Positions 6,603 through 30,897 of a DNA stretch of 37,414 bases are shown piece by piece. Under the pieces are notes generated by a model that saw only the letters and a program-made list of their open reading frames with translations, had not been told where the DNA came from and did no database searches. The DNA is from a virus, in the IMG/VR virus record IMGVR_UViG_3300030380_000945, positions 1-37,414 of that record; one strand, 5' to 3'. The position numbers and the translations under genes are program-made. Every line of letters begins with the position of its first letter. Position 1 is the stretch's first letter.

Positions 6603-6603
6603 G

Positions 6604-7739: not shown

Positions 7740-7740
7740 A

Positions 7741-8845: not shown

Positions 8846-8853
8846 ATTAACTC

Positions 8854-9990: not shown

Positions 9991-9991
9991 G

Positions 9992-10195: not shown

Positions 10196-10854
10196 TAATT
10201 TGGTATCCCATATATTGTAAATATTCCTGCGGTAATATTTGTAGCACCACTAAACCTAATGGCATTTAAAGGGTCGCTTCCACTTCCACAAACTGAGTTT
10301 GTATCATATGAATAGTAACCAACTGTGTTATCATTAATGGTAGTACCTTCACTAAAAATAAACATATTAGTTGTGTTATTATTTGATGACTTTCTATTAG
10401 CGTTCATAATATAACCAAATCCAGTACTTGCATTTGTTTCATCATTTTCTTCATCTTCAGTTAATATATGATTACCACGATTAGGCACATGACCAGTGTC
10501 ACCTCCGTTTATTTGTCTATAATTCATTTGACTAATACAAGTCATAAAACTAGATAAATTATCTGAAGAAAATCTTAGAATTAAATCATAATTTCCAGAC
10601 ACACAAGTTACACAATTGTATGTAAAAAAGAAGTTTCTATATGTAGATGAGTCAATAACACTACTATTAAAATCAACGGTAGCAACAGCAGATGTAACTG
10701 ATGTTTGTGCTAATCTAATATAATTATTTCCTATTCCAGAAGGAACATTATTAAATGTTACATTCTGAGGAATAGTTAAATTACCATTATTAGCTACAGT
10801 CATAGCAGCATTACCTGTTGTACTTTGTATAGCACCGACTTTTAATGTACTCAT
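10195..10854 (-). CDS. Tail fibre/appendage protein
   Basis: This 219-residue protein has the family anchor MSTLKVGAIQSTTGNAAMTV and a strand NGNLTIPQNVTF. Its C-terminal domain (about 45-219) differs from the EIGG and C1q types, with four or five cysteines and an ending GATNITAGIFTIYGIPN. The YNCVTCVSGNYDLILRF-type strand pattern and the ending suggest a beta-sandwich tip. It is translated from a GGAGGA site made by the C-terminal codons of the preceding EIGG paralogue. Confidence 0.7.
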   Translation of the reverse strand: MSTLKVGAIQSTTGNAAMTVANNGNLTIPQNVTFNNVPSGIGNNYIRLAQTSVTSAVATVDFNSSVIDSSTYRNFFFTYNCVTCVSGNYDLILRFSSDNLSSFMTCISQMNYRQINGGDTGHVPNRGNHILTEDEENDETNASTGFGYIMNANRKSSNNNTTNMFIFSEGTTINDNTVGYYSYDTNSVCGSGSDPLNAIRFSGATNITAGIFTIYGIPN

Positions 10855-10855
10855 G

Positions 10856-11323
10856 CTATCCTCCTATTTCCATTGCTATAAATGTTTGTGTCCCACTGTC
10901 AGCACCCCAAATATATGTTCCACTATTTGTCCTCATATAAATAGTATATGTAATTGCATTTGTAGTATTAGGACTATCTAAAAAAGTTGTAGAAAAAGGC
11001 ATATGAGAACTTCCAGCACCATTAAAAGTTTGACCAAAACCTCTAGTAGATTGTCCTAAATTTGTTGAACCCCTATATATTGTAACTATAGGTTGAATAT
11101 TAGTAGCACTTGCACTAACAGTAGCATTTACATTTAATAATATTTTACTTGATGAACTTTGTGGAGTTATTGTTACTGAAAATCCAGTTGATGTAAAACT
11201 TGTTGCTGTATTACTATGAGCAGAATTTGAAGTATTTTGAACAACTTGCAACACTGCTCCAGGAATATAGGGAGATGCTGTTCCAGCAACATCTGTAATT
11301 CTATTTGATCTTAATTCACTCAT
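10856..11323 (-). CDS. Small tail fibre/appendage protein (EIGG family)
   Basis: This 155-residue protein begins MSELRSNRITDVAG and has PYIPGAVLQVVQN, SVTITPQSSSSKILL, TIYRGSTNLG, FLDSPNTTNAITYTIYM and C-terminal FIAMEIGG. It is most similar to the protein at 7741-8214, and shares its N-terminal linker (PYI-GAVLQ) with the one at 6604-7179. That is consistent with swapping of anchor and tip modules between paralogues. Its last codons, GAA ATA GGA GGA TAG, form the next gene's ribosome binding site. Confidence 0.7.
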   Translation of the reverse strand: MSELRSNRITDVAGTASPYIPGAVLQVVQNTSNSAHSNTATSFTSTGFSVTITPQSSSSKILLNVNATVSASATNIQPIVTIYRGSTNLGQSTRGFGQTFNGAGSSHMPFSTTFLDSPNTTNAITYTIYMRTNSGTYIWGADSGTQTFIAMEIGG

Positions 11324-11847
11324 GTCTGATGCTCCAATTTAAATGATGCTGTCCCAAATTTGTCATGCAAAGTTCTATAATTAGCTTGCAAACCCCAACT
11401 CAAAGTTTGATTTGCGTTTAATGGGATCATTATATCAGCAGAAAAATGAGCATATGTGCCTGCTGGTTCAACATATTTTTTTAAATAAGCTAAACTCGGA
11501 AATGAGTCATCTATAGATAAATAAGTTACAAAAAGACCTGAATTTGAATTGCCACCATCGCCCCCAGTCATTCCCCAAATAGTGGCTCTATATATTCCAT
11601 TTACTGGACAAGTATATACACCAGTACTAGCTAAATCGTTTCCTATATTTACAATAGTATTGGAAACTGCAATTGTTGTATTAGAATTATTTTGATCTGT
11701 TGCACTCCATGCATATGATGCCATTGAAGGAGAGGTTACTAAGTTAGGAGCTACTATATTATTTGTAGTTGTTATAACACCGCCACTGATATTTGCTGCA
11801 ACATTAGTTCCAGTATCTTGTATTTGATTTGTTCTTAATATACTCAT
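11320..11847 (-). CDS. Tail fibre/appendage protein, C1q-like beta domain
   Basis: This 175-residue protein has the anchor MSILRTNQIQDTGTNVAANI and a linker SGGVITTTNN also seen in the C1q-type paralogue at 7179-7739. The body has TGVYTCPVNGIYRATIWGM and AGTYAHFSADIMIPLNANQTL, the spacing of a C1q/TNF-like jelly roll (G-Y-CPV-G-Y), with a weaker C-terminal signature (TASFKLEHQT). It overlaps neighbours on both sides by 4 nt. Fold is likely; ligand unknown. Confidence 0.65.
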   Translation of the reverse strand: MSILRTNQIQDTGTNVAANISGGVITTTNNIVAPNLVTSPSMASYAWSATDQNNSNTTIAVSNTIVNIGNDLASTGVYTCPVNGIYRATIWGMTGGDGGNSNSGLFVTYLSIDDSFPSLAYLKKYVEPAGTYAHFSADIMIPLNANQTLSWGLQANYRTLHDKFGTASFKLEHQT

Positions 11848-12344
11848 ACTATTGACAATGCTCCTCCACTAGAAATTGTTAATGTGACACCACTAGCTAT
11901 TGTTAGTGGTCCGCTTGCTATTCCATTTGTATTGGCATCAATAGTTACGTTTGTATTCAATTCATTTTCATGAACTCTTATAATAGCACCTAGATCACTT
12001 GCAGGATCACCCTTGAATATTCCAAGACCATGTGCAGCACCAGTACCAAACTTGGCACCTGTCACTGAGCCATCTGGTGTAACTACTGTTTGTTGACCTT
12101 TTCCTAAGTAGACAACGTAAATATCATCTGTTGCGGCTACGGTATAACCTTGTAGAGTTACAGTAGTTCCACTTGCTGTATAAGATGTTGCGGGTTCCTG
12201 TCTTACATTATTAATGTAAAGTGCAATTTCATTCTCGTTAGCTACTGCATTAGTTAAAGTTAAAGTTCCACCAGTAGCACCAGTAAGATCTTGTTTTGTT
12301 ATACTATTAAATGCAACAGATGCTTGATTGCCTATATATGCCAT
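11844..12344 (-). CDS. Appendage adaptor-like protein (YIG family)
   Basis: This 166-residue protein begins MAYIGNQASVAFNSITKQDL. It has a beta-rich body, LYINNVRQEPATSYTASGTT and DDIYVVYLGKGQQTV, and a C-terminal repeat-like tail PLTIASGVTLTISSGGALSIV. It is a paralogue of the protein at 8211-8675. The LYIN-VRQEP-SY--SGTTVT motif is common in phage appendage proteins that cap or connect fibres. A clear GGAG lies before the ATG. Confidence 0.7.
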   Translation of the reverse strand: MAYIGNQASVAFNSITKQDLTGATGGTLTLTNAVANENEIALYINNVRQEPATSYTASGTTVTLQGYTVAATDDIYVVYLGKGQQTVVTPDGSVTGAKFGTGAAHGLGIFKGDPASDLGAIIRVHENELNTNVTIDANTNGIASGPLTIASGVTLTISSGGALSIV

Positions 12345-14151: not shown

Positions 14152-17100
14152 TTACCTTCCGAAAGAATTGAAACTGTTGCCTCCAAAGGCATTTGTGCTT
14201 GGAAAACTAAAGGCACCCTTTCTTTTTCTAGGTGCTTTTGGAGTTACATAATCAACTAGGTCTTTTCTTGCCTGCCCTGTGATACTTATAAGTGGTAATA
14301 ATCTAGTAAAGTTATCAAATGCTTTTCTAAGACCTTTTGCTTGTTCTCTAGCATCTGTACTTACTGACTGTACTAAACCTGCAAGAACATCTCCAAATCT
14401 CTTTACAAGATTATATGCAGGTATCAATGTTCCCCCTGGGTCAAATGATTGTCTTCCTATCCTTGAACCTACAATAAAATCAGCTACAAACTGAAAGACA
14501 CCAAATAATCCGCCTCTTTCAAAAGCATTATATACAAACCTTAATGTGTCCTCATCTTCATCAAACATTTCATTGAGGAATGGGTTACCTTCTTCTCCGT
14601 AAGTCATCCACTCTCTAAGTGTGTGTTGAAGAGATAACATTGCACCAAAACCTGCAAGGTAAACCAACGGCATTGGATTACCGTGAGCCATCAATTCTTT
14701 GTATGATCTTTGTAAGACTGTGTTTGTAAAAGTAAATGTCCATGTTTTAATGTGTGATAGTAAACCAAATCTTGGGTCTGACATCCATGTAGGTTTTCTT
14801 CCTGCATCTGGAGCAATGATAATGGAAGCGACTATGTCATTTAAGGCTGCTCTTATTTTAGGATTAGATGTTCCCATTGGATCAGTAGGATCAAACATAT
14901 CAAGATCAGATGCTACAAGACCTACTTCCTGAAGATATCGGGTATACATCTGGCTACCCTTTTTAGCTTTCTTTGCCCAGTGGGGTAGGGATACAATAGC
15001 ACCTCTTAATGCCGCAACTCTTGTTGCATCTGTGATTGGCTGAAGTAAATTGTACTTAAATATTATCTGATCAACTTTTTCCCACTTAACACTAGCATTA
15101 ACTTCGGCTGCATTTTGATAAGCATATTGAAAGCCTTCAAAGATTGTACCTATGTGTTTAGCAAATATCTGTAAGTCACTATCATCTGCATCATAAGTTT
15201 TCTTAAACTCTCTGTACTTATCTCCAATAGTGCCCTTAGTAAATGCACCTTTGGCAGTACTCTTAGCCATACGGTAGGGCATTCTTAAAGTATTTTTTGC
15301 ATACTCATTTAATGTAGCAAGACCGCCGAACATTCCTAATCTATTGAACGCAATCAAAGGCTCTAATGTTGCAGGTAAGAATGATAAATTGAGAAACAAC
15401 AAGTTAGTAAAAGACTTCATGCCTTGTTGAACACCGTAAGCTCTATCACTTTTTCCTGCACCAAAGAAAGAATGAGTTGGAAGTATACCTAGGTTTGCTC
15501 TTATTAAATTAAATATAGCTGATCTATCTTCTGGTGATAATGGTGCTTCGCCTCTTGCTCCAAGTTCTTGATCGATTGTACCACCTTCGTTTACAGCTTC
15601 TGATATCTTTTCAGCTTTAGGACCAAATCTATTTACAAAAGCCATACGTCTGACAGTAGTTGTTATATACTTTTGAAGAACACCATATGTATCGTTATCA
15701 AGAAAATCTGCTAACTTCATTTTCTTTATCTGACCATTAGACATAGTCACATCAAATTCTTGATAAGGGTTCATATTTATAACCCTTCTCATTTCTTGAG
15801 GAGTAAATCTAAATACCTTCTGACCTGCAACGGTTGCTAAATCAAAACCCCATGTAGGAGCATTACCCTCATTAAGAATTTTGGATACTAAGTCTTTAGC
15901 CTTAACGTCAGCTTCTTGAACACCATCATTTGTAAATACTTGTTTAAAGAAATCTTGTAAGCCTTGAGTTTTATCTAACCCGTTCAACAGACCTTCAGTA
16001 AATTTACCGTCTAATTTATAGACTTGAGGAAAATACATAAGTATTTTGGGAGGAGGGGGAGCATTATATTGAGCATAGGTCTGTTCAATTAAACTATATA
16101 AGTCATTCATTAACTTTCTAAGTTCAACTGCTTTGTTAATACCTAAACCAACTCTTTGCATTTCAGGTGTTATTTGTATTCTACCTGTATCTTTATTTAC
16201 AAATCTACCTCTCAACAAATCAGGCACTAACTTGATCTGTGCAGTTGTCATATTATTTAAAATGTCATTGAATTGTTGTGTAAATTTACCAAGACCCTGA
16301 TTGATCTCTTCATGTACATCCATTTCAATAGTGCCTGTAGTATCTCTTGAAGTACGAGCATATTTATCACGGTCAAGGATATTAGCTAATTTATAACCAA
16401 TATCTGTACCTCTGGTTAAACCTACTAGTCTTCTTGCACTACTTGTAAAGATACCTGTAAAAGAATTTTTAGATATCTTTTCTAATCTCTCTTGTGTCTT
16501 TGAGTAATTCCTGCTTGGTCTAGCAAATAGTGGATCAATATCATTTTCAGTATCCACGTCTTCTGGATACGGTGCTATTGTGTCTTGTGATTCTTGTGAT
16601 CTAAGTTCAGTCTGTCTAAGGTTTTCTAACTTAGGTTCTATCTTTTTATTAAAAGCCTTTTGTTTGGCTTTCATTTCATCGTGTAAGGATCTTACTCTAT
16701 CTCTTACTTCATCGAGATTATTAACTCGCTCCCTCGATCTAAGCCTAATTCTTTCAATTCTTTTTTGGATAGAATTTTGTACGGTGTTGATTTCTTCGAT
16801 GTTTCCGAGGATGTAGTCTCTGGCTTGACCTTTCCCGATCCGAGGACTGAGGTCGGAGATTTCTTGGGTTGCTTCATTTATAATACCTTTCTTAAAATCA
16901 CTTATTATCTTACTATACCCATCACTATATGGAGTTGCAACTCTTTCAAAGTAACGAACCTTATAGTCTCTAGGTATTAAACTAATTTCTCCTAGAAGAG
17001 CAAGACCTGTACCCTCTACTGCATCCATTATAACTTGTGGATCTGTAATAGACGGACCACCCTCAAGATGTATGTCAAATAAGTAACCGTTTGCCACAAC

Positions 17101-20100
17101 AGACATAGACACAGGCTTATTTAATTTGGCACTTAATTCTCCTATACCTCTAGGTTCAATTTCAGATTTTCCAAATTTTCCTCCAGTTTTTACAAACACA
17201 CTAAAGGTTCTATCAAATCCAGCAGGAGGTGCTTCATTCATATTAGCATCAACAAAAAGACCTGCCGCTGCTGCTTCTTGTCCAAGAGGTCCACTTAGTA
17301 ATGATAAGAAAGTGTCCACATCTTTTTCATCAAAGTTTCCATAACCTTTAGAATCTTTGTATCTCATTGGAATACGAATGTTTGGAGAAGAGAAACCTGC
17401 ATAAGTACCAAACCCATCGGTGGTTACCCTAACCATAGATACTTTTTTACCCAACATTGCAGTAGCAATTTGATCAATCACTGATGGTAATTTTTTTCCA
17501 CCAATTCTTGATCTTGCTGTTAGTTTTCTCATGCCTTCTGCAATGATAGTGTCAGCTTCCTTTGTTGCTCCTACAAAGCCTTCTTCACCTCTCATAAGAG
17601 ATACGTTCTCTTCAAATTGTTTCCCAACAACATTAGATTGTGTGTTTACTTCAACCGTACCCACATAGGCTTCTTGAAAACCAAGTAGATTATCCCTCAA
17701 CGCATATGGCACCATTGGATTTCTTAAAACATCTTTTGTTATTTTATCATTTGGTACAGAGATACCTTGTTCTTTTAATTTAGGTATAACTCTATTTTCT
17801 AATACAAGTGCGTAATCGTCATAGTTTTGTACTTCGTTCTTTTCAACTTTACTCAAACCTCTTTCATGGACCCATGCAGGTGCTTGAATTTGCCATGTCT
17901 CATAGGGTTGAACACCTGAAGGTAAGTTGGCATTCTGCTCATTTCTTAAACCTATATAGAATTCACTTAATATATGATACATAACAAAATTGTTTGCTAT
18001 GTCATCGCCTGTAATACCGAACGAAGAAGCTACTTGTCTGTCATTAGTAGATAAAGGTACCTCATTTCTTACACCACTAAGATATAAGAATGTGCCACTA
18101 AAAGATCTTGTCTTAGGTGCTCCTAAAAATTCATCTGATAAAGCAGTAGTTACTGCGGTTGGACTAACCAAATCTGTTGTAATTGGTTTACTTTGATAAT
18201 GTTCAGACAGTAAAGCAAGTGTCCTAAACATATTATCTATTGGGTCTGCCATTGGACTAGTTGCTGCTACTACATCCCAAAATCTTTCTATCTCTACAGA
18301 AGTCATGTCTGGGAAATAATTACCTACAACCTCAGAGCTTATCTCATACCAGTACCTAGCTCTGTCTGGTAATTTTAAAGCTGCATTCCAGAAATCATCA
18401 TCTCTTGGAACCATCTTGTTTTCAAGACCTAGTTTCTTTAGCTCTGCTCTAGCACCTGGAACTTTATCTAAAGTTTCTTGCCATATTTGAGACACAGGCT
18501 TTTTACCAACATAACCTATACCTCTTTCATTTAAATCTAAATCTGTAAATCTTTGACCATCAATTGTTCTTGAAACAGTATTGAATGCTTTTTGTACTGA
18601 AGCTCTTTTATATTCTGGTATTGCTCTTTGAATATCTTCGATACTTTTAGACGGTGTATCAATACCGACTCTATCTCCGCCTTTCTTTCTAGCAAAGACG
18701 GGTGTTGTATCTTGAGTAGCATCAGATAAAGTAATGTACTCGTACACAGGTTTTGGGGTTTTATCCCTTCCTTTATAAACTATGTTACCTACAATAGGTC
18801 CTAACTCCACATTAGGTGCATACATTACTGGTCTTAAACGTGGTTGAGATGGACTATCAGGGAAAGTAGCTAACTTAGTTGCACCATTCATATTGACTTT
18901 TAGTGCATATTGGTGATCTCCTTTACCACCTGTTGGTGTTTGTACTTTTTGATTACCACCATTCTCTATACTAAGGTTGTTTGTTGAAGTTACAGTTACT
19001 AAAGTGTGTATTGGATCAGTGTCATTGTCACGATCTGTCCATTCCCACATAGTTCTTTTCTTTGCTTTTTTACTTGGGTTTATTAAGTTTACAGCTTTAC
19101 CTATCTTACCTGTAACCACTTCAGGTGGTACAAATTCAGTTTCAACATCACTGGTTACCATTGATGGTATACCTCTTTCATTGATAGCAATCTCAACGCC
19201 AGTATATGTTTTGCCTGTGACATCTCTGTCTGCATTGTTGTCTACGTCTAGATCAATATAGTTACCTCCTGCAAGAGGGTTCTCTACATTCATTTGTTCT
19301 TGTACGTCTGGTCTATTGTCTGGGACAGGGCGAACTCTGCCATAGACAGCAGTCTGATCCTCGAATGGATTACTTGCTTCTGTATCCATTCCGTATTTAG
19401 TTTTGATGTTGTTTAGATAATCATCAACTAAGTTTTTACCTGTAAGTCTCTCAAAGAATTCTCTAACGGCTCTGATAATCTGTCTGATAAAATATTGAAT
19501 TTTGTTTTCATATTCACCACTACGTCTTGTTACTGGACCTCTATATCTATTCTCAACCATCTCACCGAGAGTGTAAGCAATATACTCTTCAGCTTTGTCT
19601 GCTATATTTAGGTCTTTATAGTACGGATCATTCTCAATAAATTGTTTATTGAAGTCTGTGTCTGGAATACTATTGTACATATCCACCATCATCTCTGGTG
19701 TTATGCCTTTCATCTTGATACCAAAATGAACTAATTCATGTGCTAAAGATTCAACTCTTACGGATGGTTGTTGATTAAGTCTGATAGCAATGGCACCTCT
19801 TTGTAAATTGCCTTCAGTTTGTTTGATCCAACCTCGGAGATATGCACCAATCATTCCGTCTGCAATCTCTGGATCTATTTCCATTCTTGTTAGGTAACTG
19901 GCTAAGTTTACAACATCTACTTTCTCTAAATTTTTACCTAGAGTTTTTGCAAACATATTTATAATTTGTCTGACAGCAGGTTTGTCTTGTCCTGGAACAT
20001 TAGTAAGTAATGCTTCTATACCCTCGCCAAGAGGTAGTTCGCCTGCTCGTTGAATAGAATCATTAGTCTTTATGTCTTGTGTTCTAGCAAACTTAACTTT

Positions 20101-22536
20101 CTGATCATTAGACATCTGAGCAAGTTTATTCTTTAAGGTCTCAATAGCTTCAGCTTTATTATTTCCAATTGGAATAGGGGAGCTATATGCAGGTGTCTCT
20201 AAGTTAAAACCTTTTTCATCAACTTGAAACCAACCTACAAAAGAGTCTATACCTGTAGCCATTCTCGATGTATATAAAGTATTCTTTCCATCTGATAGAG
20301 ATGTTATTGGAGAAGAAGCAGTGTCAATACTGCCATCAGGTAATCTTGGCTTTGTAGTCTTTTGGGTATACTCGATCTCTGTCTCAGCTTCTGCCTGATC
20401 AATTATCTGGTCTTGCTCTGGTCTAGTTGAAAAATCAAAACCTTGATTCATATCAAACTGTCCAGTTTCAGGATCAGCAAAGTACTGTGTGCCTGACTGA
20501 GTTTGTTGTGTCTGTGTCTGGTTGAAGGGTAGTGGTGGCTGTGTTGCATTGTCCTGTGTGACAGGTATCACAGTTTCTGATGTCTGTCCTTCAGCAGCAG
20601 TTGCAATTTTTTCTTGAGCTTCGGATTGTCTTTCTGTTGGTTCTTTTGGTGTCTGCTCTGTCTGTGTTAATTGTTCTTGTGGTCTGTTCGCTGCATCAAA
20701 AGCATCTGCTTCATCCATCTCTGCAAACATTCTGTTTCTTGCATTGACTAAACGGCTATAGACGGCAGCAGTCAGCAAGATATTCTTAGGGACAGGTACA
20801 CCACTAGAAGATAAGGTGCCACTAGATTTAGCAAGGGATCGAGTTCCAGTTTTACTGGTAGGATCAAAAACCGTAATGTGGGTCTTCTGTGGTTTACCTG
20901 ACTTTTGAAATGGACTTAATGGGTTACCATTCTTACTCAACACCACTCTATAAACTTGACCATTTGCAGTTTGAAATACATATCGTGGAACCACCACATT
21001 CTTTACTGGGTCCATCATAAGTTTAGTGATTGCTACTCTCTCTTGTGCATCACCTAATTTTCTTTGATTAGCTTCACTGTTTCTTGTAGCTACATCTTTA
21101 ATAGAATTAATTTGTTGTATTATCTTATCACCTTGAGACAACCATTTAAAAAAGTTGACAGTGTTTGCGACTTTTACATCACCAGAATAATTTTCATTAT
21201 TTGCTCTCTTGTCAGCATCATATGCCTCCATACGGACTATTTGATTTTGTAGGAAGTTAACTCTGTCCGCTTGGTTCTCTGGGTTTAAATCTATTTCTTT
21301 AAAATCATTTGGATCTAAATCTACTATTGTTCCAGATGCTTGTGTTGATGTACCCTCATCAAAAACTGTAGGTATATTCTCTGGTCCTAAAACTTCTCCA
21401 TCAACTGTTCGTGCTTCACCTGTATTGTCGGCAATACCAAGAGGTGTAGAACTATCCGAGTCTGTGCTAAATGGTGCTTTAAATTTTCCGCTTCTTGCAT
21501 AGTTATAAGCAAGACCTGCGGATGTTGTTGGAAAATCAAAGAAGATAGAACCAACGGCTGCATCTAATGCACCTTTATATATTTCCCTTCCTGTATCAAA
21601 ACTTTCTTTAGCAATTTTATTAGATAATATAACATCAGCTACTTCTAAAGATGGTTGTAATATTAAGGTTTGTTGTGCAGCTTGACTAGCAGCTTGTCCT
21701 AACATTGGTTTGCTTGCATTAAATGAAGCTGAAACACCAAGAGAACTTGGTTTTAAAACATTACCTGTAACCCGTAAAGGTGCTATTAATGTTGCTACAG
21801 ATGCAAACGCACCTGATTTAAAACCATCAACTTTAGCTACGTCATAGGCTAAATTGTAGGCTTCTTTACTATCTTTTCCTTGTTGTCTATAAGAATTATA
21901 GGCTTGTGTAAAAGTTCCACCTAGAGTTTGAAGACCTGCCACACCACCCGCACCAACAGTTGCTCCAGTAAGCGTAGCAACTGGATTGAAACCTTTAATA
22001 CTACCTATAGCACCTCCACCAAACATACCTGTTAAAGTTGGCATTGTACCACCAGCTACATTACCTAACCAATCAGCATCAAAAAATCTTGAAAAACTAT
22101 TTTCATCATACCCAAGTCTCTTATTAGGAGCACCTAAACTTTTTTGATATTTTTGTTCTGCGGCTAACATGTTTGTTTCTAGATCACCAAGCACAAGAGA
22201 TGAACCTAAAATAGCATCACTGAAACCTTGACCTGCGGCTGCCATTGAAGCATCCCAAAAACCTGCTAAACCTCCTTCAGCACCTTCACTTTCTTCGTAA
22301 TCCGTGGCACCAAACTCTGCCATGATGTCACTTAAATCTAGATTTGTTGTTTGAGATTGTGGTGTTGTTTTTCTACTTTGAGTGAATTGAGAAATAACTT
22401 TCTTTAATTCATCAGTATTTTGATCCATTTGAGGTGCTAAGTTCTTAAAAGCTCTTTGACTGTCTTTTAATTTACTCGCACCAAAATCACTTTCACCTGT
22501 AGTAGGATTAGCAAATAAGCCATCATTCAAAGCCAT
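14152..22536 (-). CDS. Giant internal/ejection virion protein with zincin-like peptidase motif
   Basis: This 2794-residue protein takes 22% of the window. Visible layout: polar N-terminus; Gly/Ala-rich hydrophobic region at about 160-210 with GxxxG-type repeats, likely membrane-active; a low-complexity Gln/Thr linker near 650-700; a metallopeptidase-like segment with HELVH at 933-937 and a possible third ligand Glu983 or Glu984 in KAEEYIAY; a conserved region near 1380-1560 (WYEISSEVVGNYFPD, RFWDVVAATSPMADP); a charged coiled coil near 1930-1970; a long C-terminal part with amphipathic helices and a very basic tail ending in Ser/Asn/Phe/Gly. Large multi-domain proteins encoded after the nozzle in podoviruses are packaged and ejected into the cell. 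Substrate of the peptidase motif is unknown. Start supported by AGGA and downstream-coupled spacing (1 nt from the previous gene). Confidence 0.8.
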   Translation of the reverse strand: MALNDGLFANPTTGESDFGASKLKDSQRAFKNLAPQMDQNTDELKKVISQFTQSRKTTPQSQTTNLDLSDIMAEFGATDYEESEGAEGGLAGFWDASMAAAGQGFSDAILGSSLVLGDLETNMLAAEQKYQKSLGAPNKRLGYDENSFSRFFDADWLGNVAGGTMPTLTGMFGGGAIGSIKGFNPVATLTGATVGAGGVAGLQTLGGTFTQAYNSYRQQGKDSKEAYNLAYDVAKVDGFKSGAFASVATLIAPLRVTGNVLKPSSLGVSASFNASKPMLGQAASQAAQQTLILQPSLEVADVILSNKIAKESFDTGREIYKGALDAAVGSIFFDFPTTSAGLAYNYARSGKFKAPFSTDSDSSTPLGIADNTGEARTVDGEVLGPENIPTVFDEGTSTQASGTIVDLDPNDFKEIDLNPENQADRVNFLQNQIVRMEAYDADKRANNENYSGDVKVANTVNFFKWLSQGDKIIQQINSIKDVATRNSEANQRKLGDAQERVAITKLMMDPVKNVVVPRYVFQTANGQVYRVVLSKNGNPLSPFQKSGKPQKTHITVFDPTSKTGTRSLAKSSGTLSSSGVPVPKNILLTAAVYSRLVNARNRMFAEMDEADAFDAANRPQEQLTQTEQTPKEPTERQSEAQEKIATAAEGQTSETVIPVTQDNATQPPLPFNQTQTQQTQSGTQYFADPETGQFDMNQGFDFSTRPEQDQIIDQAEAETEIEYTQKTTKPRLPDGSIDTASSPITSLSDGKNTLYTSRMATGIDSFVGWFQVDEKGFNLETPAYSSPIPIGNNKAEAIETLKNKLAQMSNDQKVKFARTQDIKTNDSIQRAGELPLGEGIEALLTNVPGQDKPAVRQIINMFAKTLGKNLEKVDVVNLASYLTRMEIDPEIADGMIGAYLRGWIKQTEGNLQRGAIAIRLNQQPSVRVESLAHELVHFGIKMKGITPEMMVDMYNSIPDTDFNKQFIENDPYYKDLNIADKAEEYIAYTLGEMVENRYRGPVTRRSGEYENKIQYFIRQIIRAVREFFERLTGKNLVDDYLNNIKTKYGMDTEASNPFEDQTAVYGRVRPVPDNRPDVQEQMNVENPLAGGNYIDLDVDNNADRDVTGKTYTGVEIAINERGIPSMVTSDVETEFVPPEVVTGKIGKAVNLINPSKKAKKRTMWEWTDRDNDTDPIHTLVTVTSTNNLSIENGGNQKVQTPTGGKGDHQYALKVNMNGATKLATFPDSPSQPRLRPVMYAPNVELGPIVGNIVYKGRDKTPKPVYEYITLSDATQDTTPVFARKKGGDRVGIDTPSKSIEDIQRAIPEYKRASVQKAFNTVSRTIDGQRFTDLDLNERGIGYVGKKPVSQIWQETLDKVPGARAELKKLGLENKMVPRDDDFWNAALKLPDRARYWYEISSEVVGNYFPDMTSVEIERFWDVVAATSPMADPIDNMFRTLALLSEHYQSKPITTDLVSPTAVTTALSDEFLGAPKTRSFSGTFLYLSGVRNEVPLSTNDRQVASSFGITGDDIANNFVMYHILSEFYIGLRNEQNANLPSGVQPYETWQIQAPAWVHERGLSKVEKNEVQNYDDYALVLENRVIPKLKEQGISVPNDKITKDVLRNPMVPYALRDNLLGFQEAYVGTVEVNTQSNVVGKQFEENVSLMRGEEGFVGATKEADTIIAEGMRKLTARSRIGGKKLPSVIDQIATAMLGKKVSMVRVTTDGFGTYAGFSSPNIRIPMRYKDSKGYGNFDEKDVDTFLSLLSGPLGQEAAAAGLFVDANMNEAPPAGFDRTFSVFVKTGGKFGKSEIEPRGIGELSAKLNKPVSMSVVANGYLFDIHLEGGPSITDPQVIMDAVEGTGLALLGEISLIPRDYKVRYFERVATPYSDGYSKIISDFKKGIINEATQEISDLSPRIGKGQARDYILGNIEEINTVQNSIQKRIERIRLRSRERVNNLDEVRDRVRSLHDEMKAKQKAFNKKIEPKLENLRQTELRSQESQDTIAPYPEDVDTENDIDPLFARPSRNYSKTQERLEKISKNSFTGIFTSSARRLVGLTRGTDIGYKLANILDRDKYARTSRDTTGTIEMDVHEEINQGLGKFTQQFNDILNNMTTAQIKLVPDLLRGRFVNKDTGRIQITPEMQRVGLGINKAVELRKLMNDLYSLIEQTYAQYNAPPPPKILMYFPQVYKLDGKFTEGLLNGLDKTQGLQDFFKQVFTNDGVQEADVKAKDLVSKILNEGNAPTWGFDLATVAGQKVFRFTPQEMRRVINMNPYQEFDVTMSNGQIKKMKLADFLDNDTYGVLQKYITTTVRRMAFVNRFGPKAEKISEAVNEGGTIDQELGARGEAPLSPEDRSAIFNLIRANLGILPTHSFFGAGKSDRAYGVQQGMKSFTNLLFLNLSFLPATLEPLIAFNRLGMFGGLATLNEYAKNTLRMPYRMAKSTAKGAFTKGTIGDKYREFKKTYDADDSDLQIFAKHIGTIFEGFQYAYQNAAEVNASVKWEKVDQIIFKYNLLQPITDATRVAALRGAIVSLPHWAKKAKKGSQMYTRYLQEVGLVASDLDMFDPTDPMGTSNPKIRAALNDIVASIIIAPDAGRKPTWMSDPRFGLLSHIKTWTFTFTNTVLQRSYKELMAHGNPMPLVYLAGFGAMLSLQHTLREWMTYGEEGNPFLNEMFDEDEDTLRFVYNAFERGGLFGVFQFVADFIVGSRIGRQSFDPGGTLIPAYNLVKRFGDVLAGLVQSVSTDAREQAKGLRKAFDNFTRLLPLISITGQARKDLVDYVTPKAPRKRKGAFSFPSTNAFGGNSFNSFGR

Positions 22537-22537
22537 A

Positions 22538-23206
22538 TTAATTTCCTGACGTAATCATTGATATTATTCTGTTAACAAGTGCAGTTGACTTGTACTTTTG
22601 CATTAATCTCTGACGTAAATTTTGTAAAAACGCAGGTCTATCAGTACTTTCGAGATACTTTTGTTTAAGACCTGTTATCTGATTAGTAACTGTTTCATTA
22701 AAACCAAGAGCACCACCACTTTGATCAATACTTGGTCCTAGTTGTTGGAAGGTATCATTAATAATTCCAGTTATAGTTGAAATATCATTTGAGCCAGACT
22801 CAAGAATTCTGTCTCTAATAATGTTTTGAAGACCAGAAAGAGAACCAAGATACTCAGGTTTTATATTACCTTCACTATCATAATAGTCTTTGTTAAGCAT
22901 ACCAGAACCAATGATAGAATCTGATATTAACTTATTAACGTTTCCTAAGTTACTAAGACCTAAGTTACCTTTAGCACCTGATTTAATTTTAGCAGAAGTA
23001 ATTGTTGATAAGTTTGTTCTCAAGTTTCTAGTATCGAGACCTGACTCTTTCATTTTTGCAATATCATAATCTTTAGCTAGACCAAGATTGAACTGTCTAA
23101 TCTGTTCGTTCTTAGCTGCTATTTCTTTTTCTTTTGTTTTCTGAGCCACATCTAAGCCGCCTGCTAACTGACCTATCCTAGAAACGGTTGTGTAAAAACT
23201 TGCCAT
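22538..23206 (-). CDS. Probable internal virion protein
   Basis: This 222-residue protein has a mostly helical sequence with no signal peptide or membrane helix. It begins MASFYTTVSRIGQLAGGLDV, then a charged helix KTKEKEIAAKNEQIRQFNLG, and ends in a basic helix RQRLMQKYKSTALVNRIIS. It lies between the 463-residue and giant ejection-type proteins, each separated by only 1-9 nt. Family not recognised. By position and composition it is probably a packaged core protein comparable to the small T7 internal proteins. A GGAG site supports the start. Confidence 0.65.
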   Translation of the reverse strand: MASFYTTVSRIGQLAGGLDVAQKTKEKEIAAKNEQIRQFNLGLAKDYDIAKMKESGLDTRNLRTNLSTITSAKIKSGAKGNLGLSNLGNVNKLISDSIIGSGMLNKDYYDSEGNIKPEYLGSLSGLQNIIRDRILESGSNDISTITGIINDTFQQLGPSIDQSGGALGFNETVTNQITGLKQKYLESTDRPAFLQNLRQRLMQKYKSTALVNRIISMITSGN

Positions 23207-23215
23207 AAAAAACTC

Positions 23216-24607
23216 CTATGATTTTGTACTTGCTACGGCTGCTTTGAAACTATTGCTAAATGGGTTTTCTATACCTGCATTCAGTGCACCACCACGATAT
23301 GCGGCTTGAGATCCAAGATTAAGATTTGTAAGTTGTGCTTTCTGGTAATCCTGTAATGCAATCTGTGAATCAAATGGGATCTTTGCTTTTAGTTCAGCAA
23401 ACTTTGCATCAAGTGAGGCTTTACCCTCTGTGAATACAGTACTGTCTAACATACCTCTCTTAGACATAGTGGCTACGAAATCAGAAGTTGCTTTTGTGTA
23501 AGCATCATCTAATTCTTTAGTTCTTCTGTCGGAGAAACTAGACATATAGTTTTGACCGAAGTCACTATTTGGATCTGTTTGTGCTCTTACCCTAGCCATC
23601 TCTGCTGCATATTGTTTTGCTGCTTCTTCTTTTGGATCATCAGCAAACGCAGTTACAAGAGCAGATCCAACGGCTACTGCCTGTAATGGATCTTTCATTG
23701 CTTTATCAACAATATTATCCATCACTCTTTCAAAACTAAAATCTTTAAATGTAAAGCTACCATCGTTATTACTATCAGGGACAGTGTTTGGGTAAAAACC
23801 TGGGGCAGAAGTTCCATAAGGTGAATAGATATCTTGACCACCTGCATTTACATTTTGAAAACTAGCAAAGTTAGAACCTTTTCCACCATCATTACTAAAA
23901 CCAAAACCACCAGATCTATTGGTGTCTGTTAGTACATTAAAATTATCAGATCTCTGACCACCACCAGTTGGCAAATTGTTACTAGCTAAAGACATCTGTT
24001 GGTCTACATTCATATTTGTATTAGGGACTGACATCATACCCGCAGTATTAAGGTATTGATTATTGGCTGCATTATTAACAACACGATTATTTGCAGCATA
24101 TAAACCACCATCAACACTTAATTGTTTTGAGGGTTGTTGAGAAGACACATTTCCAGTAGGTATAAAAAGTCCTCCTGTTTCTTCATCAAATGCTGCTTTA
24201 CCACCATCACTAAATAATGGTACTTTTGATTTTGAAACATTAGCAGGTAAAGCATTGCCTTTACCGAATGTATTTGCATAAGTTGTATTTAATGTATTTC
24301 GATTTGCTGGTGACATACTAGCTTGTTTGTTACCCATCAACGTATCAAAAGTGTTTCCAAATGTTCCTACTTTCCCTAAACCTTGAGCAAGACCATAACC
24401 ACCTAGACCAGCTTGCAGGGCACCACTTGTACCACCTGCTCTAAGTCCAGAAGCCAGATTGAGACCTCCTAATGTAGACTTGATCGTGTCTCCATATTTC
24501 ATACCATCAAAAGCTCCGAAGCCACCTAGTGTAGATCCTAAAGCTAGACCTGCTCTGACTTCATCTTTGTTTAGAAAATTTCCAATTTTTTTAAATATGC
24601 TTGCCAT
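23216..24607 (-). CDS. Probable internal virion protein (T7 gp14-like region)
   Basis: This 463-residue protein starts MASIFKKIGNFLNKDEVRAG with a Gly-rich N-terminus (TLGGFGAFDG, LGGLNLASGLRAGG). It has an Asn/Gly-rich middle, then a helical C-terminal half: EEAAKQYAAEMARVRAQTDP, FSDRRTKELDDAYTKATSDF, and FAELKAKIPFDSQIALQDY. The helical part resembles the ejectosome proteins of podoviruses that line the DNA channel; exact homology to T7 gp14 is not certain. The Gly-rich start could insert in a membrane. AGGAAG precedes the ATG. Confidence 0.65.
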   Translation of the reverse strand: MASIFKKIGNFLNKDEVRAGLALGSTLGGFGAFDGMKYGDTIKSTLGGLNLASGLRAGGTSGALQAGLGGYGLAQGLGKVGTFGNTFDTLMGNKQASMSPANRNTLNTTYANTFGKGNALPANVSKSKVPLFSDGGKAAFDEETGGLFIPTGNVSSQQPSKQLSVDGGLYAANNRVVNNAANNQYLNTAGMMSVPNTNMNVDQQMSLASNNLPTGGGQRSDNFNVLTDTNRSGGFGFSNDGGKGSNFASFQNVNAGGQDIYSPYGTSAPGFYPNTVPDSNNDGSFTFKDFSFERVMDNIVDKAMKDPLQAVAVGSALVTAFADDPKEEAAKQYAAEMARVRAQTDPNSDFGQNYMSSFSDRRTKELDDAYTKATSDFVATMSKRGMLDSTVFTEGKASLDAKFAELKAKIPFDSQIALQDYQKAQLTNLNLGSQAAYRGGALNAGIENPFSNSFKAAVASTKS

Positions 24608-24609
24608 AA

Positions 24610-26430
24610 TTATCTTCCTGTTGGTGCTTGTTTAAATTGTCCTGATCTTGCGGAACCAGTAAAACTTCCGATACCAGAGATATCGATATCGTCACTGTAG
24701 TTTAAAAATGGTGAAGAACTTGATACTCCATAGATATCTTCACCTGCCTTACGTTTTCTACGTTTTATTAAGTCAGTCGGTGCTGTGTCTGGTAACCTTA
24801 TTTCCTGAGTTGGTTTCTCTGTAACAGGTGCCTTACTTACATTAACTTGAGATTGAGTGTTGTTGTCATCAGACGACATATCAGTTGGTGACACTTGAGA
24901 CATGTAGCCTTGATTTGCTCCAAGACCTAGCATTGCATCTACATCTTTACCCATTGCCTGTGCAGCAAAATTAATTGGTGTTGTAATTAACGCAGCAGTT
25001 GGACTTACCAAACCTAACATGTTGCTCACGGTGGAGAATGTACCTTTTCTAGATGAATCAATAAGACCACCTGCAACTCTTGCTGCTTGAAAAGCAGGTG
25101 CTATAGCTGTAGGCATAAATGGTGCAAAGACTCCTGCGAGTTGTGAGCCAAAGAAACCTTGGTTCTGACCACTGAAACGACCTGTAACAGTGCCGTCTTT
25201 ATTAAAATTATAATCCGCTAAAGTAACACCGTATGTTGGAGCTTGACCCCCTAATTTAGTGCTGAAGTCAGAGTAGGGTGCAAACGTATCTTTTGACATA
25301 GCCATTGTTGGTGTCACACCTGCCATATTCGGTGTGTTCATAAAGGCACCAAAATTTAAACCAAAATCTCTTCCATAACCTTTAGCTATTTCTGCTACAT
25401 CTAAACCTTTCTTGTCACTCTCTACAACAGAGCCACCAAAAAGACCACCAACTAACCCAGCAGATTCTGCATCTCTATCAAAACCTGTGTTGTCTATATC
25501 TGTTAATGTACTTACATCTTGACCACGACCACCGAACGGATCTAACTCAGGTGGACCAAAACCCATTGGACCATAACTCATACCTGCATCATTCATCTTA
25601 CTGGCATTGTCATAACCTTGAACACCAGTAGCATCTGATCTTGCAGACATTAAACCACTAAAGTCATCATCTCTTAATGCATTAGTAACAGAGCTAAAAC
25701 CAGATCCAACTACATTGCCTGTAGTTGATCCAACAATATTTGATATAACATCTGGAGCAGTTGTGGATCTTGTACTATCATAAGTCGGCATACCTGTAGC
25801 GGTATAACCAGATATTGTTTTTCCACCTCTGCTTAAATTTGCAATAGTGCTTGCATTCGATGAACCTGCTATTGAACTAGTGCCTTGAGAACCTGCAAGC
25901 ATATCACCAATCTGGGAAACAGTTGCACCTTGATTAGCCATTTCAACTGCTTGATTTACAGTAGATTGACTTGCACCTTGTAGAGCATCAAAATTAGAAC
26001 CAGCTACACCTGATCCCGCAGAAGATGTATAACCTATAGCTGCATCTGATGCAGTACTACCAGTTTTAGATACTCCGTTTATACCGAAAGTAGTTCCACC
26101 GCCAGTGCTTCCACCACCGCCAGAGCTTCCACCACCGCCAGAGCTTCCGCCAGAATCTCCACCGCCAGAATCTCCACCACCAGAGCCGCCGCCAGAATCT
26201 CCACCGCCAGAGCCGCCACCTTCGCCACCTATATCAGATCCACCGCCACCACCAGAAGAGTCTCCTGGGTTTCCAACTTCACCACCAATATCAGATCCGC
26301 CACCACCTCCACTGCTGTCGCCACCATCGCCACCAAATAAGCCATACTTTAGCTCAAAAGGATCTACATAGTCTGCCACTGTGAAAGTGTGATTATCATT
26401 CCATATTTGTCTGTCGAATATCATTCGCAA
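24610..26430 (-). CDS. Glycine-rich ejection-type virion protein
   Basis: This 606-residue protein has a short N-terminal segment, then Gly/Ser/Asp-rich sequence at about 34-115 with two copies of a DSSGGGGGSDIGGE unit followed by SGGG-type repeats. The rest is polar, Gly/Ser/Thr-rich, with a more hydrophobic patch at about 435-515 (GVFAPFMPTAIAPAFQAARV, then TTPINFAAQAMG). It starts inside the acyltransferase gene (35-nt overlap), so the two are probably co-translated. No strong ribosome binding site is visible at 26430 or 26424. It has no known family. Placement among internal proteins suggests it is ejected. Asp-bearing Gly repeats might bind calcium, but they do not match the RTX nonapeptide exactly. 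Confidence 0.65.
   Translation of the reverse strand: MRMIFDRQIWNDNHTFTVADYVDPFELKYGLFGGDGGDSSGGGGGSDIGGEVGNPGDSSGGGGGSDIGGEGGGSGGGDSGGGSGGGDSGGGDSGGSSGGGGSSGGGGSTGGGTTFGINGVSKTGSTASDAAIGYTSSAGSGVAGSNFDALQGASQSTVNQAVEMANQGATVSQIGDMLAGSQGTSSIAGSSNASTIANLSRGGKTISGYTATGMPTYDSTRSTTAPDVISNIVGSTTGNVVGSGFSSVTNALRDDDFSGLMSARSDATGVQGYDNASKMNDAGMSYGPMGFGPPELDPFGGRGQDVSTLTDIDNTGFDRDAESAGLVGGLFGGSVVESDKKGLDVAEIAKGYGRDFGLNFGAFMNTPNMAGVTPTMAMSKDTFAPYSDFSTKLGGQAPTYGVTLADYNFNKDGTVTGRFSGQNQGFFGSQLAGVFAPFMPTAIAPAFQAARVAGGLIDSSRKGTFSTVSNMLGLVSPTAALITTPINFAAQAMGKDVDAMLGLGANQGYMSQVSPTDMSSDDNNTQSQVNVSKAPVTEKPTQEIRLPDTAPTDLIKRRKRKAGEDIYGVSSSSPFLNYSDDIDISGIGSFTGSARSGQFKQAPTGR
26100..26330 (-). repeat. Low-complexity Gly/Ser-coding repeat
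   Basis: Repeating GGTGGAGG/GGCGGTGG-type triplets encode the Gly/Ser/Asp stretch of the ejection-type protein. Two longer units (near 26225-26260 and 26280-26310) are nearly identical. The stretch is markedly richer in GC than its surroundings and is a probable site for length variation. Confidence 0.6.
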
Positions 26431-26857
26431 TCACTAAACCTATTTTTCTTACCGAACCATCTGGTCTTCGTCTTAACCAGTTGCAACGGTTAGTTCCAAG
26501 TTGTTGACTGTAGGGAACGAGATGACTTCTTAACCATCTACCTACAAACCCAATCTCCTTGTTTGGTGCGATTGCATCAATTACCCAGATATTGTTTCCG
26601 CTCTTCCAATCTTCAGACTGTAGTTTGCGACTACCTGATTTGAATGCATCTTGTACCTCATCGGATAAAAATGCCCAACTTCCAAATCCAATGATCTTGC
26701 CATCCCTGTAAAACAATCTAGCTAGATCATCTTCTAACGGTTTGATAAAAAGCCTTTCTATGTCTTTTACAAACCACTGTCTGTGAACCTCAGATCCCAG
26801 ACATAATGTTAAAATACTCTTATAATCTACATTATTTTCTACTATAATACCAGACAT
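26396..26857 (-). CDS. HlyC-like toxin-activating lysine acyltransferase
   Basis: Homologues of HlyC move a fatty acyl chain from acyl carrier protein to internal lysines of RTX toxins. The 153-residue product follows the family pattern: SEVHRQW (His25, matching the catalytic His of HlyC), IKPLEDDLARLFYRDGKIIG, SWAFLSDEV, LQSEDWKSGNNIWVIDAIAP (Asp94, the other conserved catalytic residue) and a degenerate C-terminus. Length is slightly shorter than HlyC. There is no RTX toxin here, so a virion protein is the likely substrate; the next gene overlaps by 35 nt. ATG at 26857 is used (GTG at 26863 is possible); neither has a visible ribosome binding site, and both lie inside an AGACA element. Confidence 0.8.
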   Translation of the reverse strand: MSGIIVENNVDYKSILTLCLGSEVHRQWFVKDIERLFIKPLEDDLARLFYRDGKIIGFGSWAFLSDEVQDAFKSGSRKLQSEDWKSGNNIWVIDAIAPNKEIGFVGRWLRSHLVPYSQQLGTNRCNWLRRRPDGSVRKIGLVIANDIRQTNME

Positions 26858-26879
26858 AGACACAAATATACACTATTTT
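26852..26879. promoter_or_regulatory. AGACA element over the acyltransferase start codon
   Basis: On the plus strand, AGACATAGACA (26852-26862), an 11-bp spacer and TATTTT (26874-26879). With bases just beyond, AGACACAAA and TTTGTGTCT form a perfect 9-bp inverted repeat (minus strand, 26886-26878 and 26867-26859). It contains the stop of the nozzle gene and the start codon of the acyltransferase, so a bound protein or RNA hairpin here could affect both. Confidence 0.5.
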
Positions 26880-28402
26880 GTGTCTACTATTAAAGCAAAA
26901 TCTAATATTTTTAATTCTCCTGTTGCTGTGCAAGTGAACTTAACACTAATACTTTTTGATCTATGAGGTATTGGTATATCGATAGGTCTCGTACTATCAT
27001 TACTAATACCTGAAGTTGAAGCAAATCCATCATTCTCAGGGCGAACTGTAGTTTGCTGGAGTTGATTATTCTCACTATCAAATATCGTTACAACAAAGTC
27101 TGCCGTTCCGACAGCACGAATAATCAGACGTTTATAATGTTTATATGTATCAGGTGAACCCTGAGATAAGAGTGGAGTTCTCACACTCATACTGTTGGAC
27201 TGTGTCAGTGATTGACCATCACCATATCCAGACGTGGTTCCCATTTGTAATGCTGATACTCCAGAAGACGTGTCTGGTCTGGCAAAGTAAGATCCACATG
27301 TACTGTTATGAGATGTAGTATTGCTAAAACTTAGATGACCAGAACGACCTGCTGATGGATCATAAGTAAATGTTAGTTTTGTAAAGGATGTGCCTGTAGA
27401 ATTTTGTGGGAAGAAAATATGATACTGCCCAATCTCACCATCCCACACAGCATGAGGTTCAGTAAAACTGCCACTAGTTGGAACCGTATCTACTAAAGAT
27501 TGATATAAGTCTTGTATCTCTCTTGTGAATGTCACGGTCTCAAGTGTCAAACCTGAAGCTGCACGTTTCAGACTGTGCACTCCAAATCTACTACAAAAGA
27601 ATACATCCGTTCCGACATTGACTGCGGTGTTCCTACCAAAGATGCCTATAGGCACTCTAAAGTCTCTAGCTATTTCCCATAAATTTATATTTGTATCGGC
27701 TAAATATACTAAGGTTTCATTCTGACCAAAAACAACTAACTTATCACCTTCTAATACAGCAAGACCTTGAATAGTATCTCTAGAGGTAAATTGATTTTTT
27801 ACATCAATAATACTGCCATCAGTTTGATTTGGTGTAGTGCCACTTGATGTATTAGTTCTCCAATTAACAAAGCTATCTTGTTCACTTACATGTATTTCTG
27901 TATCACGGTTTGGTATACCTGCAACAACTAAACGATTTAAAATATTTACAGCAAATCCACCTTTTGGATAAGAGCCTAAACTAGAAAAATTTGTTGAACC
28001 AAATCCACTGACGGTAGTGAATGCTGAACCATTAAAATGAAATGGATTATGACCAGACATAAACGCAAATTGTTTTTGATCGAAGTTAACAGTTGCTATA
28101 GGTGTGATTGCAGTTGTGCTTGTATTAAATGCAGTGGATTGAGTTGCTGAATTAGATTTAATATCTATATTATTACCGTTAAAAATATATCGAACTAAAT
28201 CTCCAGCACCGTAATGTCTTATATTATAATGCTTTTCAGTATTACCTGATAATTTATTAATACTTGGACCTTTAATTATCTGACCTCTAAAATCTATATA
28301 AGCATCAGATAGTTCTACTAAAAACCTTTCAGACATATTTGAAGGACTTGTGACAGTGTCTAGTCCTAAAAATCTATTATATGAAAAAAGTTTTCGAGCC
28401 AT
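26873..28402 (-). CDS. Tail nozzle / DNA stabilisation protein (P22 gp10-like)
   Basis: This 509-residue, beta-rich protein begins MARKLFSYNRFLGLDTVTSP and repeats blades of a propeller-like pattern: RLVVAGIPNRDTEIHVSEQD, IQGLAVLEGDKLVVFGQNET and FRVPIGIFGRNTAVNVGTDV. VFFCSRFGVHSLKR is typical of podovirus nozzle proteins that close the tail and hold packaged DNA. It follows the adaptor with a TAATG overlap, as in P22-like assemblies. The Asp/Glu and aromatic spacing supports the fold; exact family is by resemblance. Confidence 0.75.
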   Translation of the reverse strand: MARKLFSYNRFLGLDTVTSPSNMSERFLVELSDAYIDFRGQIIKGPSINKLSGNTEKHYNIRHYGAGDLVRYIFNGNNIDIKSNSATQSTAFNTSTTAITPIATVNFDQKQFAFMSGHNPFHFNGSAFTTVSGFGSTNFSSLGSYPKGGFAVNILNRLVVAGIPNRDTEIHVSEQDSFVNWRTNTSSGTTPNQTDGSIIDVKNQFTSRDTIQGLAVLEGDKLVVFGQNETLVYLADTNINLWEIARDFRVPIGIFGRNTAVNVGTDVFFCSRFGVHSLKRAASGLTLETVTFTREIQDLYQSLVDTVPTSGSFTEPHAVWDGEIGQYHIFFPQNSTGTSFTKLTFTYDPSAGRSGHLSFSNTTSHNSTCGSYFARPDTSSGVSALQMGTTSGYGDGQSLTQSNSMSVRTPLLSQGSPDTYKHYKRLIIRAVGTADFVVTIFDSENNQLQQTTVRPENDGFASTSGISNDSTRPIDIPIPHRSKSISVKFTCTATGELKILDFALIVDTK

Positions 28403-29566: not shown

Positions 29567-30745
29567 CTATGTTAATGACTGCCAAGAAGTGATGATGGCG
29601 TGTGTCTTTTCTTGAAGAATTTCTAAACCTGCTTCTGTTAGATATTCGTCTGTGACACCGTCAACACCATTGCCCTGACGATCTTTTAACAATTGAGTAT
29701 CGTCAACGTATCTGTATCTTAAATCCTTAGTATCTAAGATAATTGCATCATACTGAGCACCTGGGATCTGTCTGAACATTGGGTGAGTTTTAACTTGTAA
29801 TGTACCTGCAAAAGTATTGTAAGTAGTAAAGTTAACACCATATGAATCACCAGTTCCAGTGCTGTTGATTTGATATCTTGACTTAGCTAGTGTCTGTAGG
29901 TGCTCTGCAACCTTCCATCCACATAACATTAACTTTTCAGATGAACCGAAAGCAAATGCTTTTTCTGCCAAGAAAGTATCAAACTCAGCTTCTGTTAAAC
30001 GGTTAGCGTTAGAGTTAGCTGCCGCATCTTCTACGTTAGTAGTAATAGAATTAAAGATACCATCAGTGTATCTTTCTGGCATACCTGCGGAACCTGCTAC
30101 GATGTCCTTTTTACCGAACAACATTGCTCTTTCCATTCCTACCATATGCTCTTTTAAAGCATCACGAGACTTCTCTAAATACTGATCTCCAGTTCTGAAG
30201 TTAGTATGCATAGCAGTTCTTGTGATTGAATATGGTGTTCTGAAAATTTGGCAAAAGTTCTCGGTGCTTGATGCATCGTAACTTACTGCTGTTGGAGTGT
30301 CACCACCTTCAGCATTACCATTTCCGACCATGAACCATGTGTCGTTAGCTGCAATAGCTACACCTGTTCCACTGTTACCAACACCTCTTGTTACTGTAAA
30401 AGTTGTTGCAGTTGGTGTTGCAGTAATCTTAGCAACTTCACCTGTTCGGTAGTTCCTAATTAACATTCCAACACGGAAGAATGCAGCATCTGCGGCAGCA
30501 GTTGCGGTTAAAGTTGTAGCTGAAGTACCTGATACAGCACCTGAGTGAGTAAAGGTAAAGCTAGGTAGATCCTTCCTAAAGTTATGGAATTCTGGATCGT
30601 CTGTTGCTTCTGATGGAAGCATTGAGAGAATAGCCGTAAGCGGAGCCGAACCATTCGGCTCTAACATTAGGTATTTCTCTCTATAGTTTTCGGGGCGATG
30701 ATCGGCTGCAAATGAACCTGTTCCCCTCATACCAAGAGTAGTCAT
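29567..30745 (-). CDS. Major capsid protein (HK97-fold, SU10-like)
   Basis: This is the 392-residue head shell protein. It starts MTTLGMRGTGSFAADHRPEN and has FHNFRKDLPSFTFTHSG and RTPYSITRTAMHTNFRTGDQ, MERAMLFGKKDIV, and a C-terminal AGLEILQEKTHAIITSW. The N-terminal GSFAADHRPENYREK-LMLEPNG pattern is one I associate with SU10-type capsid proteins found in many marine podoviruses. ATG at 30745 is preferred over GTG at 30754 because GAGGT lies 7 nt before it. It follows the scaffold gene after a 200-bp gap that contains an AGACA element and a long leader (30746-30897), consistent with separate strong expression. Confidence 0.85.
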   Translation of the reverse strand: MTTLGMRGTGSFAADHRPENYREKYLMLEPNGSAPLTAILSMLPSEATDDPEFHNFRKDLPSFTFTHSGAVSGTSATTLTATAAADAAFFRVGMLIRNYRTGEVAKITATPTATTFTVTRGVGNSGTGVAIAANDTWFMVGNGNAEGGDTPTAVSYDASSTENFCQIFRTPYSITRTAMHTNFRTGDQYLEKSRDALKEHMVGMERAMLFGKKDIVAGSAGMPERYTDGIFNSITTNVEDAAANSNANRLTEAEFDTFLAEKAFAFGSSEKLMLCGWKVAEHLQTLAKSRYQINSTGTGDSYGVNFTTYNTFAGTLQVKTHPMFRQIPGAQYDAIILDTKDLRYRYVDDTQLLKDRQGNGVDGVTDEYLTEAGLEILQEKTHAIITSWQSLT

Positions 30746-30897
30746 AGTAATCACCTCATTAGGTTAGAGTTAAATATAGTTCGTCTGTTCGACTGCTCCT
30801 CGGGTTGTATGTAAATAAACTTAGTTTCCCGTTTGGTCTTTAGTTTAAATACTGCCGTCTGGTAGGCATTCATAATTAGACATATTTAAAATACATC

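Follow-up and report, generated by a model that had tools for sequence, protein, structure and literature searches.

Coupling of HlyC-like acyltransferase genes to the next virion gene in a marine phage and its relatives

A gene for a HlyC-like acyltransferase directly precedes, and overlaps, the gene of a putative internal virion protein, g606, in a phage described as marine. The 37.4 kb IMG/VR record of this phage, analysed over its whole length of 37,414 nucleotides, is called here the window. Coupling between hlyC-like genes and the next virion gene is found in several types of phages, and among the relatives of the window phage the N-terminus of the next protein changes with the enzyme. 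We propose that the HlyC-like enzyme would acylate the N-terminal module of g606 during assembly and so aid passage through the host envelope in DNA ejection, by analogy with the action of CdiC on CdiA; we give this reading an even chance of being right.

Pfam searches identified an SU10-type capsid protein and a portal in the window, where a terminase and an integrase are also present. The gene order at the locus is MCP-g144-g223-g509-hlyC-g606-g463-g222-g2794, with the following genes around the hlyC-g606 pair.

29567-30754, minus strand: major capsid protein, SU10 type (PF17236, E 1.2e-42), anchor of the family comparison
26873-28402, minus strand: g509, upstream of the hlyC-like gene, homologue of the 'stabilization protein' gp42 of CRP-810 (tblastn E 2e-39)
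23216-24607, minus strand: g463, virion-module gene after g606, order conserved
22538-23206, minus strand: g222, virion-module gene, order conserved
14152-22536, minus strand: g2794, giant virion structural protein (by gene order and phrog_30152, virion structural protein, E 3.5e-19)

In the isolate CRP-810 this region includes genes for a distant g509-like 'stabilization protein' and for a GNAT, besides one annotated as internal virion protein D. No Pfam or PHROG profile matched g606, and it is on synteny that we regard it as a putative ejection or internal virion protein. The first-pass annotation had assigned it to an ejection module; it lies among virion genes, and the ejection role is what synteny suggests. 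Three other features of these genomes deserve mention. A tyrosine recombinase/integrase is encoded at 499-1647 on the plus strand, so the window phage is probably temperate. A series of short tail-fibre-like ORFs at 6048-12344 on the minus strand, several of them resembling one protein of locus L204, suggests duplicated or shuffled fibre segments. In the relative IMGVR_UViG_3300017739_002105 (L006/L152) the g463 homologue is divided into three ORFs of 162, 149 and 127 aa, probably by assembly frameshifts.

The enzyme gene and its two putative catalytic codons are placed as follows.

26396-26863, minus strand: hlyC-like gene, HlyC/TAAT-family acyltransferase, 155 aa from GTG or 153 aa from ATG at 26857
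26783-26785, minus strand: catalytic His codon, H27 from GTG or H25 from ATG, aligned to the ApxC HR...W motif
26576-26578, minus strand: catalytic Asp codon, D96 from GTG or D94 from ATG, its WVIDAIAP aligned to WFIDWIAP of ApxC

The protein matches the HlyC family PF02794 with 77.2 bits (cut-off 25, E 1.4e-21), and its sole credible sequence match in the PDB is ApxC (4WHN, E 1.4e-7), with which the HR...W and WxID.IAP motifs agree. Its AF2 model (pLDDT 87) also has ApxC 4WHN as the top PDB match in Foldseek (E 1.3e-8, TMq 0.68), followed by general GNATs. Thus the identification as a HlyC-like acyltransferase with His25, Asp94 (ATG numbering) and the family motifs is borne out, both by profile and alignment and by comparison of the predicted structure with ApxC. 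The statement that the phage lacks an RTX toxin agrees with the ORF scan: the repeat GGxGxDx[hydrophobic] was absent from every window ORF of at least 60 aa. A Pfam scan of window proteins, which took in part of the small ORFs, detected no type I secretion genes. From its sequence, the window enzyme is predicted to be catalytically active.

Viral contigs and phage isolates were scanned for similar genes, which gave 129 distinct phage HlyC-like genes, the next gene being in view for 121. In 119 of these 121 the next gene lies on the same strand and within 5 nt or overlapping, and in 118 it is either large or truncated where the contig stops; usually it encodes a large virion or tail protein. 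The window gene, with its overlap of 29-35 nt, belongs to this group of phage HlyC-like slot proteins, defined by a stop codon at most 5 nt from, or overlapping, the next virion gene. The two exceptions are L021, with a broken downstream frame, and L187, whose HlyC clusters with cellular HlyC in the tree. The latter is a viral contig (L187:1-3282) in which a 926-aa protein, RTX-like at its C-terminus, is directly followed by the cellular-type HlyC, whose His and Asp are kept. The next gene differs by phage type: tail protein J (phrog_31) in siphophages, g606 in the window family, a Gly-rich coiled protein in the CRP-235 type and a basic protein in the HTVC115P type. In the HlyC tree, the window lineage, a second lineage called B (loci L186, L188, L215 and L216), the CRP-235 type and the siphophages together with the HTVC type form separate clades whose deep joins are uncertain. 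The close pairing with the next gene, which the first-pass annotation had proposed to look for in other phages, therefore holds across several phage types. HlyC-like genes are also found in the early region of HTVC104P (L004) and HTVC103P (L088), before a 107-aa protein and a ssDNA-binding protein; they have Trp at the catalytic His position and possibly play a different role.

The next gene in the window, and the parts of it that concern us, are these.

24610-26430, minus strand: g606, Gly/Ser/Asp-rich virion protein and putative substrate; TTG start uncertain, ATG at 26424
26396-26430, minus strand: overlap of the hlyC 3' end and the g606 5' end, 35 nt from TTG 26430 or 29 nt from ATG 26424
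26320-26424, minus strand: g606 N-terminal module (MIFDRQIWNDNHTFTVADYVDPFELKYGLFGGDGG), proposed recognition/acceptor module, absent from the GNAT-linked orthologue of L143, with a similar module in an unrelated backbone
26347-26349, minus strand: Lys26 codon (ATG numbering), candidate acyl acceptor, the only Lys within the first ~120 residues of g606

The 606 residues of g606 include 19% Gly, 12% Ser and 8% Asp. The overlap of 35 nt described earlier is correct if TTG is the start, and in relatives the overlaps of hlyC and the next gene range from 4 to 38 nt. However, the glycine-rich character to which importance had been given is probably incidental: the Gly-rich stretch varies among relatives, and was rejected as the conserved feature of g606, whereas the preceding module of ~35 residues, of pattern …WNDN…FELKYGLFGGDG, is conserved. 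This module is under purifying selection, with a pN/pS of about 0.2 or less and mainly synonymous change per site, an estimate made on few sites and on pairs outside lineage B. Most modules carry Lys at the position aligned to Lys26; Arg takes its place in L151, where the enzyme is intact, and in L215, where the catalytic Asp is Ser. In TTG numbering the Lys residues of g606 lie at 28, 122 and beyond. An invariant acceptor Lys was also considered and rejected, no Lys being invariant among g606 relatives.

Relatives of the window family were collected via the capsid protein and show the common order MCP-g144-g223-g509-slot-g606-g463-g222. The slot is occupied by HlyC in the window family and by an unrelated GNAT acetyltransferase (phrog_1249, E 1e-20) in L140 and L143-L146; sequence similarity between this GNAT and HlyC was not detected. 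The GNAT-linked g606 orthologue of L143 is 60% identical to g606 of the window. The first ~33 residues are missing from this orthologue, and its start, MCGGGGDGG, is immediately preceded by a stop codon. Since L143 is nested within the window clade of the g606 tree, beside the HlyC-linked L010 (support 98/97), the sequences are most simply explained by replacement of HlyC by GNAT with loss of the module in the same lineage. Swap and module loss constitute a single event. A GNAT-linked protein in L211 likewise has an N-terminal extension, so such an extension is not strictly HlyC-specific.

In the isolate CRP-810 too the GNAT precedes a protein that starts with MCGGS. A search with the CRP-810 GNAT gave four loci; the phrog_1249 profile, run over 246 genomes, matches every GNAT in every genome and is non-discriminating. 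A GNAT directly before a putative ejection protein with a Met-Cys start was seen in L143 (MCGGGG), L209 (MCGSSS), L169, which is CRP-810 (MCGGSP), and L168, which is YeP5 (MCTGVE). The arrangement is thus present in four of seven loci and not in SIO1, L211 or L212, and Met-Cys starts about 1% of background ORFs. We take this pattern as a lead only.

The module recurs in another phage backbone. Lineage B has different neighbours and a HlyC from a separate clade, yet its next protein has a similar N-terminus (MYNPRGMWSDGWF...YQLKHYCFGGDGD); compare MWSDG...F...YQLKHYCFGGDG of lineage B with MWSDG...FDPFEIKYGLFGGDG of L010. phmmer revealed no other similarity in the rest of the lineage B and window-lineage downstream proteins. 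In shuffle tests of the N-termini, most pairings that involved L186 and L188 reached a p of at most 0.003. A profile of the four lineage B N-termini, searched over 2687 ORFs, had significant non-self matches only in L009 (1.3e-5) and L010 (2.4e-4), both of them window-lineage g606 proteins, and in the reverse profile search L186 ranked first (0.011). Part of the similarity lies in the Gly/Asp tail, as the cross-search without it gave E 0.02 or worse. No isolate relatives of the lineage B proteins were found.

The idea that the phage acylates a virion protein for entry was raised in the first-pass annotation, and what favours it now is the family, fold and residues of the enzyme, the conserved link to the next virion gene and the co-varying N-terminal module; catalysis, acylation itself, the acceptor Lys, the chain type and the role in ejection are inferred. 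The HlyC/TAAT-type enzyme would act on g606 before or during virion assembly and recognise its N-terminal module of ~35 residues. By analogy with HlyC, a host acyl chain would be taken from acyl-ACP and transferred to the module, most likely to Lys26. The lipid may give the N-terminus of g606 affinity for membrane or LPS and could thereby ease anchoring of the protein in the host envelope, or its passage across it, during DNA ejection, much as the lipid attached by CdiC promotes the binding of CdiA to target cells. A point against Lys26 as the acceptor is the Arg of L151, which is found in spite of the intact enzyme.

It seems unlikely, but deserves consideration, that an active acyltransferase has another substrate, be it g606 outside its N-terminus, a different virion protein (g463, g2794 or g509) or a host protein. 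There are 17 other Lys in g606, several of them clustered near the C-terminus (RRKRKAG), and this Lys/Arg-rich C-terminal motif is kept in both HlyC-linked and GNAT-linked forms; besides, phage GNATs have been interpreted as host-reprogramming genes (PMC10504331; PMC11288001). However, the slot always adjoins the same virion gene, and what varies together with the enzyme is the N-terminal end of that gene's product.

The state of the catalytic residues bears on another alternative. Among 41 diverse phage homologues, position 27 (GTG numbering) is His in 24, Tyr in 16 and Trp in one, and position 96 is Asp in 23, Glu in 15, Ser in two (L215 and L216) and Gly in one (L072 type). The earlier proposal had treated loss of the pair as evidence against it, and here the picture is divided: the pair is intact in all seven window-lineage sequences, whereas the siphophage and HTVC115P branches have Tyr plus Glu or Asp. 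Activity can therefore not be assumed family-wide. Siphophage relatives keep the slot position in the absence of the His/Asp pair, so a non-catalytic assembly role can be conceived, in which the protein assists the next gene product as chaperone or structural adaptor and uses the HlyC/GNAT fold as a binding platform. The siphophage and HTVC115P types indeed retain the fold (pLDDT 89 and ApxC TMq 0.78 for the Tyr-group model) and the place before tail protein J, and the Ser and Gly variants point the same way. Yet the intact window lineage and the majority of His at position 27 speak for catalysis, the replacement enzyme in the slot is also an acyltransferase, and the conservation of the Tyr/Glu state favours a re-tuned over a dead site; we consider the non-catalytic role improbable. 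That hlyC is a moron derived from a cellular RTX system and functionally unconnected with the gene that follows is very hard to sustain, for although HlyC occurs in 56 of 246 genomes in a sample of the bacterial order centred on a Rhodobacteraceae genome, and L187 joins a cellular-type HlyC to an RTX-like protein, the phage genes fall into four separate clades, are tightly coupled to the next gene and are under purifying selection.

Acylation of the next protein's N-terminus, the reading that we prefer, may extend to the J branch. There, a Met-Gly start is found in 10 of 11 HlyC-linked clusters (two of them via a better-placed second start) and in none of nine J homologues that lack HlyC; counted on strict starts, the Fisher test gives p about 1e-3, phylogenetic correction being incomplete. 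The exception is the L072/L081 type, in which the acidic residue is lost; in the siphophage contigs L072-L083, with Gly at this position, the J protein starts with MKKIF. This post hoc pattern suggests a wider rule of N-terminal modification. In five of the nine HlyC-free cases, the siphophages L283, L284 and L286-L288, DUF6950 (PF22262) takes the slot ahead of J, and in two of the five it weakly resembles NlpC/P60. A tentative generalization, which we rather doubt, would be a virion-protein acylation common in tailed phages, where a small enzyme of GNAT fold, HlyC-like or true GNAT, encoded before an ejection or tail-tip gene would modify the N-terminus of its product, either at the module Lys (window lineage and lineage B) or at the N-terminal Gly of proteins that start with Met-Gly (the branches of siphophage J, HTVC115P and CRP-235).

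Both the enzyme family and its annotation in pelagiphage and roseophage records are already known. The 'toxin-activating lysine-acyltransferase' of pelagiphages HTVC026P, 103P, 104P, 111P, 112P and 115P and of roseophage CRP-235 belongs to the same Pfam family and is mostly encoded before a tail- or ejection-type gene, and the HlyC name is also borne by a UniProt viral entry. In three of these isolates the HlyC-like product is gp29 (CRP-235), gp47 (HTVC112P) and gp45 (HTVC115P). Unlike the window enzyme, the pelagiphage members lack the catalytic His, and the HTVC103P and HTVC104P copies lie in the early region. In the literature searched we found no description of phage virion acylation by a HlyC-type enzyme or of the hlyC/virion-gene pairing. 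With HlyC, ApxC and CyaC (TAAT, PF02794) the window enzyme shares the family, the ApxC fold, His and Asp, and a gene placed just before that of the putative substrate; it differs in that no RTX substrate was found in the window, in its length (155 aa vs ~170), in its virion-gene neighbour and in its phage context. Compared with the hlyCABD-type RTX operon, there is no adjacent RTX protoxin with nonapeptide repeats in the window, and g606 is without a Pfam match. The phage GNATs (phrog_1249; CRP-810 gp40, L143, L209 and YeP5) share the slot ahead of a virion gene of this kind and the GNAT-superfamily fold, but the proteins linked to them start with Met-Cys and have no module; the CRP-810 paper regards GNATs as metabolic genes (PMC11288001). 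CdiC, of class IV CDI, modifies Lys of the adjacent CdiA and raises target-cell binding; CdiA modification is lowered or lost with its H37A and D107A mutants, and the acylated Lys of CdiA is not invariant in the family, Arg partly substituting for it (PMC8510554). The window enzyme resembles CdiC as a HlyC-family protein encoded beside a putative delivery protein; however, its neighbours are phage virion genes and not CdiA, and the comparison is one of how the two may work, the modification here being putative. Phage-encoded lipidation of the first internal protein, if true, would be a direct, testable mechanism by which internal proteins of podophages get into and across the host envelope. 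It would also provide a function for genes that now carry the annotation 'toxin-activating acyltransferase' or are set aside as metabolic extras, and would add virions to the toxins and CDI systems in which the HlyC family acts.
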